From Bacteroidota bacterium (GTDB taxonomy: Bacteria; Bacteroidota; Bacteroidia; Bacteroidales; VadinHA17): DNA of 48,928 nucleotides. Location: contig JAKPDL010000203.1 of NCBI GenBank assembly GCA_029552825.1, forward strand, positions 1-48,928, given 5' to 3'. Below, one piece after another: positions 23,755 to 28,881 of this stretch. Both the position numbers and the translations under genes were made by a program. Positions within the stretch are counted from its first letter, which is position 1, and the number at the start of each line of letters is the position of its first letter. Below the pieces are notes generated by a model that did no database searches, was not told the DNA's origin, and saw only the letters and a list, made by a program, of their open reading frames with translations.

Positions 23755-23785
23755 TTTACATCCTGTTATTCTCTGGTTATTTTTG
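23755..23785 (+). promoter_or_regulatory. Promoter of the Hdr-like operon
   Basis: TTTA (23755-23758) is followed after exactly 19 nt by TATTTTTG (23778-23785), an exact TAnnTTTG box. The transcript would start near 23790, about 33 nt before the first ATG. Confidence 0.6.
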
Positions 23786-23822
23786 TAAATAACCTGAAGA
23801 TTTTGTCTGAATTATTTAATTG

Positions 23823-24548
23823 ATGGAGAATCTTTATAATCTGCTCACTGAAGATATACGTTTTGTTGAAGGGCTGAAGGCGTGCCTTAACTGTGGTGTT
23901 TGCACCGCCATCTGTCCGGCAGCAGAGTTTTACAATTACGATCCACGTAAGATTGTAAACGAAGTCCAGAAGAAAGACAATGAAGCTATTGAAGCTCTTT
24001 TGAAGTCTGAAACAATCTGGTATTGCGGTGAATGCATGTCATGCAAGACACGTTGCCCGAGGGGGAATACGCCCGGACTTGTTATTATGGCTTTAAGGGC
24101 TCTATCACAAAAACTCGGCTATTTCACAGAAAGCGAAAAGGGTCGTCAGCAGTTTGCAATAAAAAGAACTGTTGGTGAGAATATTTTCAAATATGGTTAC
24201 TGTGTGGCAACTTATGCTGTTAAGCCGGAGTTGCATCCGGAACAGGGGCCTGTTTGGGAGTTTATCATCGACCATTCAAGGGAAATATATGAACGACTGG
24301 GCTCAAAATACGATGAGCTGGGCGAGGGACCAATGAGGAAGATTCCTGAAGATGCAAAGGAAGAACTTCGTAAGATTTTCGATGTGACAGGAGGAACTCG
24401 CTTTATGAATCTCATCGAGGAACATTCACAAAGGAAAGCCGCAGAACTGGGATATCATACAGGCGAAGGAATAAACAGCGAATACTTTGTGAAAGTTTAT
24501 ACTGAAAACAGCGGAAAACATAACCAGAAAGAACCCGGAACATTATGA
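23823..24548 (+). CDS. hdrC: HdrC-like 4Fe-4S ferredoxin-type subunit (sHdrC1 position)
   Basis: The product is 241 aa from the ATG at 23823; a TTG just before it is less likely as start. Two [4Fe-4S] motifs lie at C21-x2-C24-x2-C27-x3-C31 and C68-x2-C71-x2-C74-x3-C78, as in HdrC and QmoC/sHdrC electron-transfer subunits. The C-terminal ~160 residues are a helical extension (EELRKIFDVTGGTRF) seen in the longer HdrC1 proteins. It is the first of five overlapping or closely spaced genes; its stop overlaps the next start (ATGA). It probably passes electrons between HdrB- and HdrA-like subunits in the cytoplasm. Confidence 0.85.
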   Translation: MENLYNLLTEDIRFVEGLKACLNCGVCTAICPAAEFYNYDPRKIVNEVQKKDNEAIEALLKSETIWYCGECMSCKTRCPRGNTPGLVIMALRALSQKLGYFTESEKGRQQFAIKRTVGENIFKYGYCVATYAVKPELHPEQGPVWEFIIDHSREIYERLGSKYDELGEGPMRKIPEDAKEELRKIFDVTGGTRFMNLIEEHSQRKAAELGYHTGEGINSEYFVKVYTENSGKHNQKEPGTL

Positions 24549-25609
24549 AGGAACCTGAAAACAAACGTATCTGGTCGGAATACCAGAAGGAGATAGCAGA
24601 TGACCACTTTTTCTATGTCAGGTCATGCATCAGACAGTCATTTTTCCCTGGCTCCGAACAGTTCTTTCTGAAAATGATGAGAGAAATTCTCGGAAAAGAT
24701 ATTTATGAAAATCCTTCACATACAACCTGCACCGGTATTGGTTACCATACCGACATTGTTCCTTTCGAGACAATCATGACTGTTATTGCAAGGCATTTTG
24801 CACTGATGAAGGAAGCTGGTTACAGGAATATAGCAATTTCGTGTGTTACTTCCTTTGGCATCTACACCGAAATAATTGAAACATGGAAACATTTTCCAGA
24901 AACTCTGGAAAAGACCAGGGAATATCTGTACAAGGCTACGGGCAGGGAGTTCGATGTGCCTGAAAATATGGCCCATACAAGCGATATTGTATATAAATTC
25001 AGAAATGAGATAGCGGCAAAAGCAAAATACAGGCTTGTAAACAGATTTACCGGGGAGCCTTTAAAAGTGGTAGAACATATAGGTTGCCACTATTCTAAGA
25101 TGTTTCCAAAATACGGCGTGGGAGGGGCTGAATTTCCCAAAGTTCTCTCTGGCATGATTGAAGCATGGGGAGGGCAGGTTATTGATTACCCTGAACGCCG
25201 TCACTGTTGCGGGTTCGGATTCAGACAATACATAGTACAGGCAAACAGGGGCTATTCGCTCAGTAATTCTGTCAAGAAATTTGAATCTATGAAGCCCTAC
25301 AAGCCAGATTTTATTATAACCAACTGTCCGGGATGCAATATGTTCATGGACAGATGGCAGTATGCAATGAGGGAGATGGAAGGGAAGACTTATGGCGAAA
25401 ACGGGCTTTCAATTCCGGTTCTTACATATGAAGAGGTTGCGGGATTGGTACTGGGTATAAATCCGTGGGAACTGGGATTACAGTATCATATGGTTCAATC
25501 AGAGCCGCTTTTGGATAAAATTGGTATAGAATATAATCCATCTGATAAATACCTGACCAAAGATGGGATACGCATTCCTGCGCCTGAAAATCTGATAAAT
25601 ATTAAATAA
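24545..25609 (+). CDS. hdrB: HdrB-like CCG-domain subunit with degenerate N-terminal CCG motif
   Basis: The product is 354 aa. The C-terminal CCG (DUF224) motif is complete: C181, C221-C222 in HCCGFGF and C261-x2-C264 in NCPGCN. In HdrB this pattern binds a non-cubane [4Fe-4S] cluster that acts on disulfides. The N-terminal half retains only C28, C62 (TCTG instead of CCG) and C100 (CVTS instead of CxxC), so one of the two clusters is likely lost or changed. It overlaps hdrC by 4 bp and is followed 3 nt later by hdrA. The long C-terminal tail ends IRIPAPENLINIK. Confidence 0.85.
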   Translation: MKEPENKRIWSEYQKEIADDHFFYVRSCIRQSFFPGSEQFFLKMMREILGKDIYENPSHTTCTGIGYHTDIVPFETIMTVIARHFALMKEAGYRNIAISCVTSFGIYTEIIETWKHFPETLEKTREYLYKATGREFDVPENMAHTSDIVYKFRNEIAAKAKYRLVNRFTGEPLKVVEHIGCHYSKMFPKYGVGGAEFPKVLSGMIEAWGGQVIDYPERRHCCGFGFRQYIVQANRGYSLSNSVKKFESMKPYKPDFIITNCPGCNMFMDRWQYAMREMEGKTYGENGLSIPVLTYEEVAGLVLGINPWELGLQYHMVQSEPLLDKIGIEYNPSDKYLTKDGIRIPAPENLINIK

Positions 25610-25612
25610 GCG

Positions 25613-26632
25613 ATGGAGAACATTGTTGTTATAGGCGGAGGTGTTTCAGGTCTGGAGGCAGCCGGACAGCTTGCCAGGATGGGTTACAGTGTTACAGTTG
25701 CTGAAAAGAATGAAAAGACAGGAGGAAATGTTAAGAACTGGTACCACCTGTTTCCCGACAGGCGCGACAGTAAAGAAGTTATTGATTATCTGAATAAGCT
25801 TGCAAGCCATCCTGACATCAAGATACTTACAGGAAAAGAAATCACAGAAATATCTTCAAGAAACGGAAAATTTGACATTAAATCATCCGACGGGACGGTT
25901 CTGGAAGCTGATGCTGTAATTGTTGCAACGGGCTTTGAATTATTTGATAGCCGGAGAAAAGAAGAGTACGGCTATGGCATTTATGATAATGTTATCACTT
26001 CAGCAGACCTGGAGAAGATGTTTAGAAGCGGAGGTGTCAGGCTGGTTAACGGGAAGCTGCCTGAAAAGGTCGGTTTCATTCATTGCGTTGGCTCGCGTGA
26101 TGAAAAGGTGGGAAATTATTATTGTTCAAAACTCTGTTGTGTTACTGCTGTTAAGCAGGCAATAGAGATTAAGGAGAAGATTCCCGGTGCGGAGATTTTC
26201 TGTTTTTATATGGACATGCGAATGGGAGGACCATATTATGAGGAACTTTACAGGGAGGCGCAGGAGAAATATGGCATAACTTTTATCAGAGGTAAAGTTT
26301 CAGAGATTTCGGTAAATATCAACGGCAAACTTGTCACGAAGGCTGAAGATACTCTTGCCGGCAGACCTTTAAGAATGGAACTCGACATGGTTGTACTTAT
26401 GGTGGGAACAGAGATGCCTGAAGGCAACATTAAACTTGCTGAAAGATCACTCCTGAAATGCAGTGAAAACCGTTTTTTCAAGCCAGTAGATAATCACTAC
26501 GGAAGCAACCTGAGTGGAAAAAAAGGGATTTTTTATGCCGGTTGCTGCGTGGCTCAAATGAATATCACTGAATCAATATCGCATGCAAGAGCTGCTGTGA
26601 GTGAGGTGGTTAATTATCTGAAAAACAGATAG
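25613..26632 (+). CDS. hdrA: HdrA-like FAD/4Fe-4S subunit (short, sHdrA type)
   Basis: The product is 339 aa, much shorter than methanogen HdrA (about 650 aa) and close to the length of sHdrA proteins. An FAD-binding GGGVSGLEAA occurs at the N-terminus. The HdrA-specific cluster motif HCVGSRDEKVGNYYCSKLCC places C158, C171, C175 and C176. Further cysteines are C311-C312 near the C-terminal AGCCVAQMNITESISHA, which closes the FAD site. It lacks the extra ferredoxin domains and the MvhD-interacting part of bifurcating HdrA, which speaks against hydrogen-coupled bifurcation. It would be the flavin centre of the complex. Confidence 0.87.
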   Translation: MENIVVIGGGVSGLEAAGQLARMGYSVTVAEKNEKTGGNVKNWYHLFPDRRDSKEVIDYLNKLASHPDIKILTGKEITEISSRNGKFDIKSSDGTVLEADAVIVATGFELFDSRRKEEYGYGIYDNVITSADLEKMFRSGGVRLVNGKLPEKVGFIHCVGSRDEKVGNYYCSKLCCVTAVKQAIEIKEKIPGAEIFCFYMDMRMGGPYYEELYREAQEKYGITFIRGKVSEISVNINGKLVTKAEDTLAGRPLRMELDMVVLMVGTEMPEGNIKLAERSLLKCSENRFFKPVDNHYGSNLSGKKGIFYAGCCVAQMNITESISHARAAVSEVVNYLKNR

Positions 26633-26633
26633 T

Positions 26634-26987
26634 ATGAAATCCAACAAGTTCGGATTTACTTTATCAGAACCGAGGGTTATAGACTATGAAGCCAACAACA
26701 GGCAGATAGCCGAATATATATTTGATCACGAACCAACTTTCAGGCTTTGTATTGAGTGCGGAGCCTGTGCCGCTACATGTACTGCAGGACAATTTATGAC
26801 TTTCAGCCTGAGGGAACTTAATGTGTTACTGAAAAGGGGTGAAAACGACATCCCGCGGCAGAGAATAAAAAATTGTATGTTCTGCGGTAAATGTATATTG
26901 GTTTGTCCGCGCGGGGTTAACACACGAGGTGTTATTTTTCACGCAAGGGAAGCTTTCAGAAAAATTGAAGGTAATGAAAGATTTTGA
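26634..26987 (+). CDS. hdrC2: Small HdrC-like 4Fe-4S subunit (sHdrC2 position)
   Basis: The product is 117 aa with two [4Fe-4S] motifs: C39-x2-C42-x2-C45-x3-C49 and C81-x2-C84-x2-C87-x3-C91, with the typical helical spacer ELNVLLKRGE between them. It is about half the length of sHdrC2 proteins and lacks their C-terminal extension. It begins 1 nt after hdrA and overlaps the next gene by 14 bp, so all are one transcription unit. The close pairing with the membrane-fused HdrD-like gene suggests it relays electrons to that subunit. Confidence 0.85.
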   Translation: MKSNKFGFTLSEPRVIDYEANNRQIAEYIFDHEPTFRLCIECGACAATCTAGQFMTFSLRELNVLLKRGENDIPRQRIKNCMFCGKCILVCPRGVNTRGVIFHAREAFRKIEGNERF

Positions 26988-28881
26988 TCCATTTGTGATA
27001 CCTTTTAACGTAGGCCTATACTTCATACTTATCTACAGTGTGGTGAGGTGCGTTATCTGGTTTCGCCAGCTTTCAAGAGCCGATAAACTCAGACTGCAGA
27101 GGGGATTCTTCAGCAGAGCCTTTGGCGAAAGCCTGAGGGAGATTTTCATGGAGAGTTTGATACATCGAAAAATATTGAAGGCAAAACCTGTGCTCGGTTA
27201 TATGCACATGAGTCTTGCTTTCGGATGGTTTCTTTTAATAGTGTTTGGAACCCTTGAGGCAGATATATTCGGCAAAAGTCATCTCAATCCTCCATATAAA
27301 GCTATCTTTTTCAGATTTTTCAATCCCGGTCACGGAAATTCACTTCTGGCAGAAATATGGGAGTTTATAATGGATCTGCTTCTTGCCTTTATTCTCTCGG
27401 GCCTATTGCTTGCTATTGTTAAAAGGTTTTTGCCTGGTGTGGTTGGCATGAAGAAGACTACAAAACTCAGATTGCGTGATAAAATAGCGCTTACAGCTCT
27501 CTGGCTCGTTTTTCCCAGCCGTCTAATTGCCGAGAGTCTTACCTGTGGTGCACATGGTTCGGGAAGCTTCCTTACAGGAACAACAGGTGCATGGTTAGCA
27601 TCTTTTCTGCCAGCTGAGTCACTGGCTTATCCATTCTGGTGGCTCTATTCACTCTCACTGGGAGTATTCTTTATTCTACTGCCTGTGACACGTTATATGC
27701 ACATTCCTACTGAGCTGTTTCTTATTTTTATGAGAAACTCGGGAATTACCACCGGTGATAAAGCAGGTACATTTGCAGAGGTGGAGGTTCATTCATGTTC
27801 TTCCTGCGGAATGTGCATCGATGCCTGTCAGATGAGCTTCGTTACAGGTATAAACAACATACAGCCCGTTTATCTTCACAGAGCATTGAGGAATAATGAA
27901 GATGTAACCGAGAAGGCATACAATTGCCTGATGTGCGGCAGGTGTGAGGAAGCATGTCCAGTCGGGATTGAAGTTTCAGCCGTTAGAATGATACAAAGAA
28001 GAAATAAAACAGGAAAACCGCTGTACGAGAACAGATGGATGGGATACTTCCGTGAACACCTTAACCATGAACCTGCATCAAGCGGTAAAACTCAGAATTA
28101 CAAAATAAGAAGCAATATAAGAGTTGAAAAAGCTGATACAATCTATTTTGCAGGATGCATGACTCATCTTACACCAGGGATAAAGGAAGCGATGATTAAG
28201 ATTTTCAGGGCAGCAAATGAAAAAGTATGGTTCATGGATGAGGTAGAAGGTGCATGCTGCGGAAGACCCCTGATGCTGGCAGGTAATGACAGGGAGGCAA
28301 GGGAATTGATAAACTTTAATTCGGATCTGATATGGAAATCAGGTGCAAGTAAACTTGTTACTTCGTGTCCTATTTGTTATAACATTTTCAGGTCAAGTTA
28401 TTACATTGATACTGAGATACTTCATCACTCACAATATATTAAGAACCTTATTGATAACGAAGCAATCAGATTCAATTATTCACATAAGAAAGTTGTTTAT
28501 CACGATCCCTGTGAACTGGGAAGGGTTGCAGGTATTTATGAGGAACCGAGAGATGTTGTTTCATGGGTGGCAGATCTTGTTTCAGTTCCCGAAGAGGCTG
28601 AAAAATCGCTTTGCTGTGGCAATTCACTTGCCAATATATTTCTTCCTCCTTCAAAGAAAAACGCAATTGCAGTAGATGCCATAAAAAGACTTACAGCCGG
28701 AAATCCTGATATCGTTGCCACTTCATGTCCACTATGTAAAAAGACCTTCTCCAGGGTTTCAAAAACAAGGGTGGCAGATATAGCAGAAATAGTTGCCGAA
28801 GAAATTTCCAGTGTTCAGAGTAAAAGAATCAGAACTGCATCAGTGAATCTCAGGGAGATGGTCAATCAACTCCTTGGGTAG
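26974..28881 (+). CDS. NarI/HdrE-like membrane domain fused to HdrD-like Fe-S/CCG domains
   Basis: The product is 635 aa from the ATG at 26974; an upstream GTG at 26929 lies inside hdrC2. Residues 1-255 hold about five membrane helices with candidate haem ligands H78, H194 and H243, as in NarI, HdrE, DsrM and QmoC. Residues 275-328 carry two [4Fe-4S] motifs (C275/278/281/285; C318/321/324/328). Two complete CCG domains follow: C395, C428-C429, C465-x2-C468; and C513, C547-C548, C585-x2-C588. This combines a quinone-facing cytochrome b-like module with an HdrD/DsrK-like active subunit. The same architecture occurs in ETF:menaquinone oxidoreductases (EMO/EtfD), the main alternative; no etfAB is nearby. 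Confidence 0.87.
   Translation: MKDFDPFVIPFNVGLYFILIYSVVRCVIWFRQLSRADKLRLQRGFFSRAFGESLREIFMESLIHRKILKAKPVLGYMHMSLAFGWFLLIVFGTLEADIFGKSHLNPPYKAIFFRFFNPGHGNSLLAEIWEFIMDLLLAFILSGLLLAIVKRFLPGVVGMKKTTKLRLRDKIALTALWLVFPSRLIAESLTCGAHGSGSFLTGTTGAWLASFLPAESLAYPFWWLYSLSLGVFFILLPVTRYMHIPTELFLIFMRNSGITTGDKAGTFAEVEVHSCSSCGMCIDACQMSFVTGINNIQPVYLHRALRNNEDVTEKAYNCLMCGRCEEACPVGIEVSAVRMIQRRNKTGKPLYENRWMGYFREHLNHEPASSGKTQNYKIRSNIRVEKADTIYFAGCMTHLTPGIKEAMIKIFRAANEKVWFMDEVEGACCGRPLMLAGNDREARELINFNSDLIWKSGASKLVTSCPICYNIFRSSYYIDTEILHHSQYIKNLIDNEAIRFNYSHKKVVYHDPCELGRVAGIYEEPRDVVSWVADLVSVPEEAEKSLCCGNSLANIFLPPSKKNAIAVDAIKRLTAGNPDIVATSCPLCKKTFSRVSKTRVADIAEIVAEEISSVQSKRIRTASVNLREMVNQLLG

Follow-up and report, generated by a model that had tools for sequence, protein, structure and literature searches.

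A five-gene operon of Bacteroidota encoding heterodisulfide reductase-like subunits and a predicted membrane-anchored HdrD-like protein

Gene content and predicted metal sites

We describe an operon of five heterodisulfide reductase (Hdr)-like genes on a contig of a Bacteroidota bacterium (JAKPDL010000203.1, assembly GCA_029552825.1); the whole stretch analysed, 48,928 nucleotides long, is called the window. Five open reading frames (ORFs), C1-B-A-C2-D, follow one another almost without interruption on one strand at 23823-28881, and all the features given below lie on the + strand. A preliminary description had read them as hdrC, hdrB, hdrA, hdrC and an HdrD-like gene, in an order paralleling the C1-B1-A-C2-B2 order of the sHdr system, and the five ORFs were confirmed. 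The first gene, hdrC1 (23823..24548), most likely starts at the ATG at 23823 rather than at 23755 and codes for a soluble two-[4Fe-4S] electron carrier of 241 residues, in which Fer4_8 and Fer4_17 exceed their cut-offs and the NCBIfam HdrC profiles stay below theirs. It is overlapped by 4 bases by the B1-like hdrB (24545..25609; 354 residues), whose C-terminal CCG domain exceeds the Pfam cut-off. The short-form hdrA (25613..26632) follows; its product, 339 residues long where about 340 had been announced, combines a flavin adenine dinucleotide (FAD)-binding Pyr_redox domain with one four-cysteine cluster site (Cys158, 171, 175, 176) and has no extra ferredoxin domains. A single base separates it from hdrC2 (26634..26987; 117 residues), a further two-[4Fe-4S] carrier with Fer4_9 and Fer4_7 over cut-off. 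There is no room for the 'hyp' gene whose absence between hdrA and hdrC2 had been remarked, nor does a lipoate-binding protein gene, likewise reported missing, lie beside the operon. The last gene (26974..28881) overlaps hdrC2 by 14 bases, likely starts at the ATG at 26974 and encodes the HdrD-like subunit D, a protein of 635 residues in which Pfam, AlphaFold2 and Foldseek recognise a NarI/EtfD-like domain of five helices together with two [4Fe-4S] and two CCG sites. Altogether, Pfam and NCBIfam recognise HdrC-type diclusters, one CCG domain in B, Pyr_redox in A, and a Fer4 dicluster with two CCG domains in D; the NCBIfam models listed for the five proteins all score below their own cut-offs, and no NCBIfam family claims them. 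A scan of the operon for the Bacteroidota promoter pattern gave no match.

The cysteines expected to bind the clusters are highly conserved. The eight ligand cysteines of C1 together with its Cys127, the eight of C2 and the four of HdrA are present in 112 of 112 aligned rows. In the case of HdrB, the two sites differ. The C-terminal CCG site (25085..25336) is complete, and its five cysteines (Cys181, 221, 222, 261, 264) occur in all 115 rows having a letter at these positions (116 rows, one of them partial). The N-terminal site (24626..24853) is modified to Cys28, Cys62-Thr63 and Cys100-x-x-Ser103, retaining three of the five cysteines of canonical HdrB; Cys28, Cys62, Cys100 and Ser103 are again found in 115 of 115 rows, residue 63 being Thr, Ser or Gly, and a second alignment (10 stand-alone and 68 five-gene rows) displays the same site, with Ser103 in 77 of 78. 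This CT...CxTS motif is common to the sHdrB1 rows, whereas the HdrABC-type rows keep CC...CxxC. The equivalent of Cys261, the first cysteine of the C-terminal CxxC, is lost in the three sHdrB1-type rows of the alignment. The predicted fold of HdrB matches that of the methanogen HdrB 5odc_B (Foldseek, TMt 0.85), in a model that is weak at residues 1-10, 183-195 and 226-233.

The preliminary description had also proposed that the last subunit begins with a five-helix cytochrome b-like domain. The AlphaFold2 model of D (pLDDT 85.9, from a 20-row alignment) agrees with it, showing five long helices at residues 6-32, 72-99, 124-152, 167-194 and 214-238, and the nearest solved fold is that of EtfD 9OJN of M. 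smegmatis (Foldseek, TMq 0.66, E 1.1e-20, root-mean-square deviation 9.6). The membrane domain (26974..27738) contains His64, His78 and His243, invariant in 104 of 104 rows of an alignment that joins the window's D to 103 of 109 D proteins, six short ones being dropped. These residues are candidate ligands of a predicted haem b; in the five EMO-like rows compared, the equivalents of His78 and His243 alone are kept. Besides the eight 4Fe-4S cysteines, present in all 104 rows, D bears two complete HdrD-type CCG sites (28156..28737), Cys395, 428, 429, 465, 468 and Cys513, 547, 548, 585, 588, of which nine cysteines are found in 104 rows and Cys513 in 103. By comparison, among seven EMO/EMO-like or sHdrB3 rows the first CCG site is complete in L211 only and degenerate in the other six.

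Conservation and distribution in the order

The survey of gene order suggested by the preliminary description bears out what it had observed: of 164 related loci, 156 have C1-B-A-C2-D (stand-alone C1-B pairs excluded; the set is redundant, at least 11 contigs, recognised by their equal lengths, being counted twice), which excludes a chance arrangement. The eight departures comprise six contig ends, one split operon and one rearrangement. In the first Bacteroidota set, all five genes occur in 108 of 115 loci, six of the misses lying at contig ends and the seventh (L107) being the split operon; in a further set of 59 loci from the window's order, 48 display C1-B-A-C2-D, one (L268) has all five genes as C1-C2-D-B-A, and ten are stand-alone C1-B pairs. 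The best 80 loci from a search of genome contigs for relatives are all from Bacteroidota. The operon has come apart in the genus g155, where two genomes contain B-A and C1-C2-D as separate halves; a third genome has B-A and a match to D elsewhere. This co-retention of the halves after breakage of the operon argues that the five subunits would form one complex. The most conserved of them is HdrB, with a median identity to the window protein of 71% (range 61-89, 163 loci), followed by C1 (60%), A (51%), C2 (48%) and D (47%).

Of 295 genomes drawn from the window's order, 92, belonging to 67 of 183 genera, have the family HdrB (E<=1e-30), with very high scores save for three partial matches, and some of these genomes possess two. 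To judge from the named carriers, which include Alistipes, Butyricimonas and Prolixibacteraceae, this order would be Bacteroidales. In a phylum-wide sample of 395 genomes, the window genome alone scores at the level of the family; the next best matches come from the HdrB1 of two sHdr clusters (151.6 and 147.5 bits), and the five members of the order given without a match in that sample had none. The gene set is widespread in the order, in many Bacteroidales including gut genera, and is not an oddity of a single genome.

The neighbours of the five-gene operon vary between lineages; conserved ones were seen only among close lineages, except for regulators and transporters of loose similarity. 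By cluster count, eight of nine loci (L090, L101, L108, L151, L155, L158, L161, L162, L169) have upstream, on the same strand, genes for a membrane histidine kinase and a LuxR-type response regulator (named by eye), which perhaps regulate the operon.

The ten stand-alone pairs (L231, L232, L235, L241, L250, L252, L259, L274, L277, L284) are C1-B paralogues whose B is 60-67% identical to that of the window and whose two genes are adjacent or separated by one ORF; a quick tree unites them with a support of 0.42. Genes of Mrp(/NBP35), NifX-like, DUF134, radical-SAM or MinD-ferredoxin type adjoin nine of the ten, and BLAST places thiol or sulfur genes beside five. Among the picked neighbours, Pfam and NCBIfam recognise TusA, a YeeE-type transporter, rhodaneses, thioredoxin, OsmC and CGGC, and, below cut-off, a thioredoxin reductase (just under), a CoA-disulfide-reductase-like and a methionine-gamma-lyase-like protein. 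L232 thus carries TusA, a YeeE-type transporter and rhodaneses, L284 thioredoxin and thioredoxin reductase, and L235 the CoA-disulfide-reductase-like flavoprotein (219.8 bits against a cut-off of 458); OsmC, CGGC, C_GCAxxG_C_C or TusA/YeeE/rhodanese genes occur in some of the stand-alone loci. These pairs could possibly be orange-protein-like metal/sulfur systems equipped with an Hdr module.

Kinship with known Hdr-type systems

The HdrA tree comprised 25 rows of the family, one cyanobacterial plasmid row, three sHdrA (6TJR, L197, L198) and 17 HdrABC/Qmo-like rows, the Hdr and Qmo labels being assigned here from protein size and gene order. The family, the cyanobacterial row and sHdrA stand apart from the HdrABC/Qmo-like rows (support 100/98), and within this assembly sHdrA (100/99) and the family with the cyanobacterial row (100/99) are sister clades. 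In the HdrB tree, for which the program issued a long-branch warning, the family, the cyanobacterial row and sHdrB1 are separated from seven HdrABC-type rows (100/99); the family is supported at 98/99 and sHdrB1 with a plasmid row at 100/100, and the tree leaves open how the family, the cyanobacterial row and sHdrB1 branch from one another. With sHdr reference rows as few as three sHdrA and two sHdrB1, these phylogenies indicate that HdrA and HdrB are kin to sHdr as a sister family, placed outside the sHdr clade itself. The designation 'sHdr-like' therefore holds as to kinship and fails if it is understood as sHdr proper. The grouping with Qmo or methanogen HdrABC that would have spoken against it is excluded by the same supports. 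An HdrABC or Qmo origin is accordingly rejected, despite the slightly higher phmmer score of the window HdrA with methanogen HdrA 5ODC (205.2 bits, but in two separate stretches) than with sHdrA 6TJR (198.9 bits, end to end).

In the plasmid collection, the sole relative from beyond Bacteroidota whose HdrB identity exceeds 40% is a cluster of a Picosynechococcus sp. PCC 7003 plasmid (NZ_CP016476, L190 11242-16982), closest to the Bacteroidales family in its HdrA. Its genes follow the order C1-B-A-C2, and their products are 51, 41, 44 and 29% identical to those of the window. It differs by ending in a soluble HdrB/SdhE-type B2, the next gene encoding an SQR-like flavoprotein (83.3 bits against a cut-off of 525), and by having no membrane D.

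Other Hdr-type systems share parts of this design. HdrABC and Qmo have homologous subunits, but the window HdrA is without ferredoxin domains and falls outside both sets of rows, as HdrB does outside the HdrABC-type rows; an HdrA of 339 residues and three of five cysteines at the N-terminal HdrB site depart from HdrABC, with its long HdrA containing ferredoxin domains and two complete CCG sites in HdrB, and a single HdrA and no QmoC-like subunit in the operon depart from the QmoA-QmoB-QmoC set. HdrED and DsrMK consist of a cytochrome b and an HdrD-type unit with two CCG sites. D possesses the corresponding ligands, the haem being predicted, but fuses both parts in one chain and is encoded with HdrA, HdrB and two HdrC. 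As for EtfD/EMO, the NarI-type membrane domain, the Fer4 dicluster, the CCG region and the fold are the same. D nevertheless forms its own clade (100/100, in a tree of D against EMO/EMO-like rows, without HdrD or DsrK reference rows), has both CCG sites complete and is encoded with Hdr genes instead of etfAB. A grouping of D with EMO/EtfD and a partner etfAB elsewhere, which the preliminary description had held up against its own view, was not observed: the window genome has a separate etfBA and EMO-like set on contig C28, outside the operon, and D as a plain EtfD is rejected. In this other set (L074, C28:30000-40000), etfB-etfA are found with a split EMO-like pair, one member being a membrane protein with Fer4 and the other a distinct CCG-CCG protein, and with an acyl-CoA dehydrogenase.

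Proposed function and its alternatives

Our preferred reading, to which we give somewhat less than an even chance, is that the five subunits make up a thiol/disulfide:menaquinone oxidoreductase which is anchored in the membrane and forms a sister of sHdr. HdrA, the FAD protein, would join two arms, a soluble C1-B arm with the thiol site and a membrane C2-D arm. A thiol, a persulfide or a dithiol carrier would be handled at the CCG cluster of HdrB, and the electrons would travel from B through C1 to the FAD and the cluster of A, then through C2 to D, which would deliver them via its putative haem b-type membrane domain to menaquinone. Thiol oxidation is favoured as the direction, since the potentials of common thiol couples are lower than that of menaquinone. 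This reading is supported by the maintenance of the gene order while the neighbours change between lineages, by the methanogen HdrB-like fold of B together with its rank as the most conserved subunit, by the EtfD fold, the three invariant histidines and the retained CCG cysteines of D, by the kinship of HdrA and HdrB with sHdr, by the thiol or sulfur genes adjoining half of the stand-alone pairs, and by the gene for an SQR-like flavoprotein, below cut-off as it is, in the cyanobacterial cluster. Menaquinone methyltransferase exceeds its cut-off in 38 of 40 carriers, which fits this reading, but also in 36 of 40 non-carriers, and so does not discriminate.

Several observations weigh against it. 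For a pure quinone relay, two complete CCG sites in D would be superfluous. Within six ORFs on either side of the five-gene loci, a marker of the Mrp/NifX set is present in 0 of 164 and a thiol/sulfur marker in 7 of 164; the markers were chosen from the stand-alone loci themselves and many loci are cut short, which makes this contrast a descriptive one. The stand-alone pair may furthermore act differently from the C1-B of the operon. Two carriers, G382 and G422, have no menaquinone methyltransferase over cut-off yet possess D; G422 has two UbiA-type genes and G382 only a partial match below cut-off. Finally, neither GcvH (35 of 40 in each group) nor TusA distinguishes carriers from non-carriers, TusA being present in 17 of 40 carriers and in 21 of 40 non-carriers, one of the latter below cut-off. 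In these comparisons, a carrier is a genome with the family HdrB (including G569, which shows a stand-alone pair only, and G382, with a split operon), and of the 40 non-carriers 13 are among the genomes listed without a match and 27 are inferred to be so.

If the thiol:menaquinone reading is right, a quinone-linked redox complex would be added to the respiratory inventory of Bacteroidales, and a third wiring of the sHdr-type core to soluble sHdr and to sHdr with etfAB-EMO. A broader proposal, which we would doubt on present indications, is that about a third of Bacteroidales, gut Alistipes and Butyricimonas among them, use an undescribed membrane Hdr complex to respire or buffer the thiol/persulfide pool of the cytosol. 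It would have two different arms active on disulfides, set around a single flavin, and would need no lipoyl or TusA carrier, while the HdrC1-HdrB pair would be a thiol module of general use, able to function by itself alongside metal-cofactor/sulfur-relay genes. As the carriers include cultured gut species, the complex is open to testing.

Could the complex run in the reverse direction, drawing on menaquinol to reduce a disulfide, trisulfide or persulfide in the manner of HdrED/DsrMK, with the two CCG sites of D as catalytic centres? The CCG cysteines of D, kept where most of the EMO-type rows are degenerate, would suit such a role, and the best NCBIfam matches of D, all below cut-off, are TfrB (100.4 bits), LdhH (98.5) and then DsrK (70.0). 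We nonetheless consider it unlikely: the conserved HdrB/HdrA arm would need a further partner, and the reaction would be uphill from menaquinol for ordinary disulfides. On the other hand, the complex might transfer or confurcate electrons without thiols, the HdrA or the B-C1 arm accepting them from ferredoxin, NADH or some dehydrogenase for delivery to quinone, with HdrB as a docking site. Bacterial HdrABC modules often serve dehydrogenases; Glu134 and Lys181 of the window HdrA align with Glu356 and Lys409 of 5ODC, which we take to sit by the FAD, and this Lys is absent in 6TJR; and 157 of the 164 five-gene loci have no thiol/sulfur marker nearby. However, no dehydrogenase gene is among the recurrent neighbours listed, the short HdrA is without the ferredoxin domains of long HdrA, and HdrB shows no variation at its C-terminal CCG site; we accord this possibility a low probability.

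A true sHdr, oxidizing sulfane sulfur to sulfite and connected to quinone through an EMO-like protein that replaces B2, appears very improbable to us. Its gene sets are described, in the part of PMC11582611 drawn upon, as syntenic shdrC1B1AHC2B2 for type I and shdrC1B1AHB3 with etfAB for type II, and LbpA genes are, in an excerpt of PMC6067878, 'inevitably associated' with Hdr-like genes. The operon has the order, the short FAD-binding HdrA with one four-cysteine cluster, the N-terminal HdrB motif of sHdrB1 and a sister position in the trees, but its last gene encodes a membrane protein instead of a soluble B2 or B3, no gene stands between A and C2, sHdrH, etfAB and LbpA are lacking from the operon, and its C-terminal HdrB motif is complete and differs from that of sHdrB1. 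Of 40 carriers, five have no GCV_H match (E<=0.001), these being genomes of two families, 98-99% complete, and the same is true of 5 of 40 non-carriers; TusA is absent in 23 of 40 carriers, including the window genome, and in 19 of 40 non-carriers. Besides one clear GcvH without cysteine (L286 4769-5149), the window genome has a single weak GCV_H match, at 24.4 bits. In favour of sHdr, etfBA and EMO follow downstream in the real sHdr clusters of Bacteroidota, and Sulfobacillus provides, in the part of PMC4378227 concerned, the precedent of a membrane CCG protein with etf genes adjoining sHdr genes. Our literature search found no description of the five-gene membrane complex among the matches listed, and the nearest is a Black Sea study (PMC11129491), the relevant section of which credits isolates including Bacteroidota with a 'heterodisulfide reductase system' and proposes sulfide detoxification, giving no architecture; in the same section, however, the strains showed no sulfide oxidation in culture. 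True sHdr was rejected on the type I/II gene-set rule and on the GcvH and TusA gaps, and labelling such genes 'sulfur oxidation' from annotation alone calls for caution.

Sulfur-oxidation-type clusters do exist in the phylum. L197 and L198, from two genomes of one family outside the window's class, are type II-like sHdr clusters with GcvH/LbpA-like, DsrE-like, C1, B1, A, B3, etfBA and EMO genes, a candidate H gene being seen in L197 only. A scan of viral contigs with sHdrA gave five candidate stretches and no relative. On a plasmid of Acidithiobacillus ferrooxidans (L191), a solitary sHdrB1-like protein is encoded close to one annotated as GcvH and to hemerythrin-domain proteins, with a hydroxylamine reductase further on, and the same match recurs in two more records. 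Finally, the window genome contains, on another contig (L073, C89:33000-46000), genes for the large and small subunits of a [NiFe] hydrogenase followed by two HdrA-like flavoproteins (600 and 579 residues) around a QmoC-like protein, whose Fer4 part was recognised by Pfam and whose cytochrome part by eye; this locus looks like a hydrogen:quinone Hdr/Qmo hybrid.

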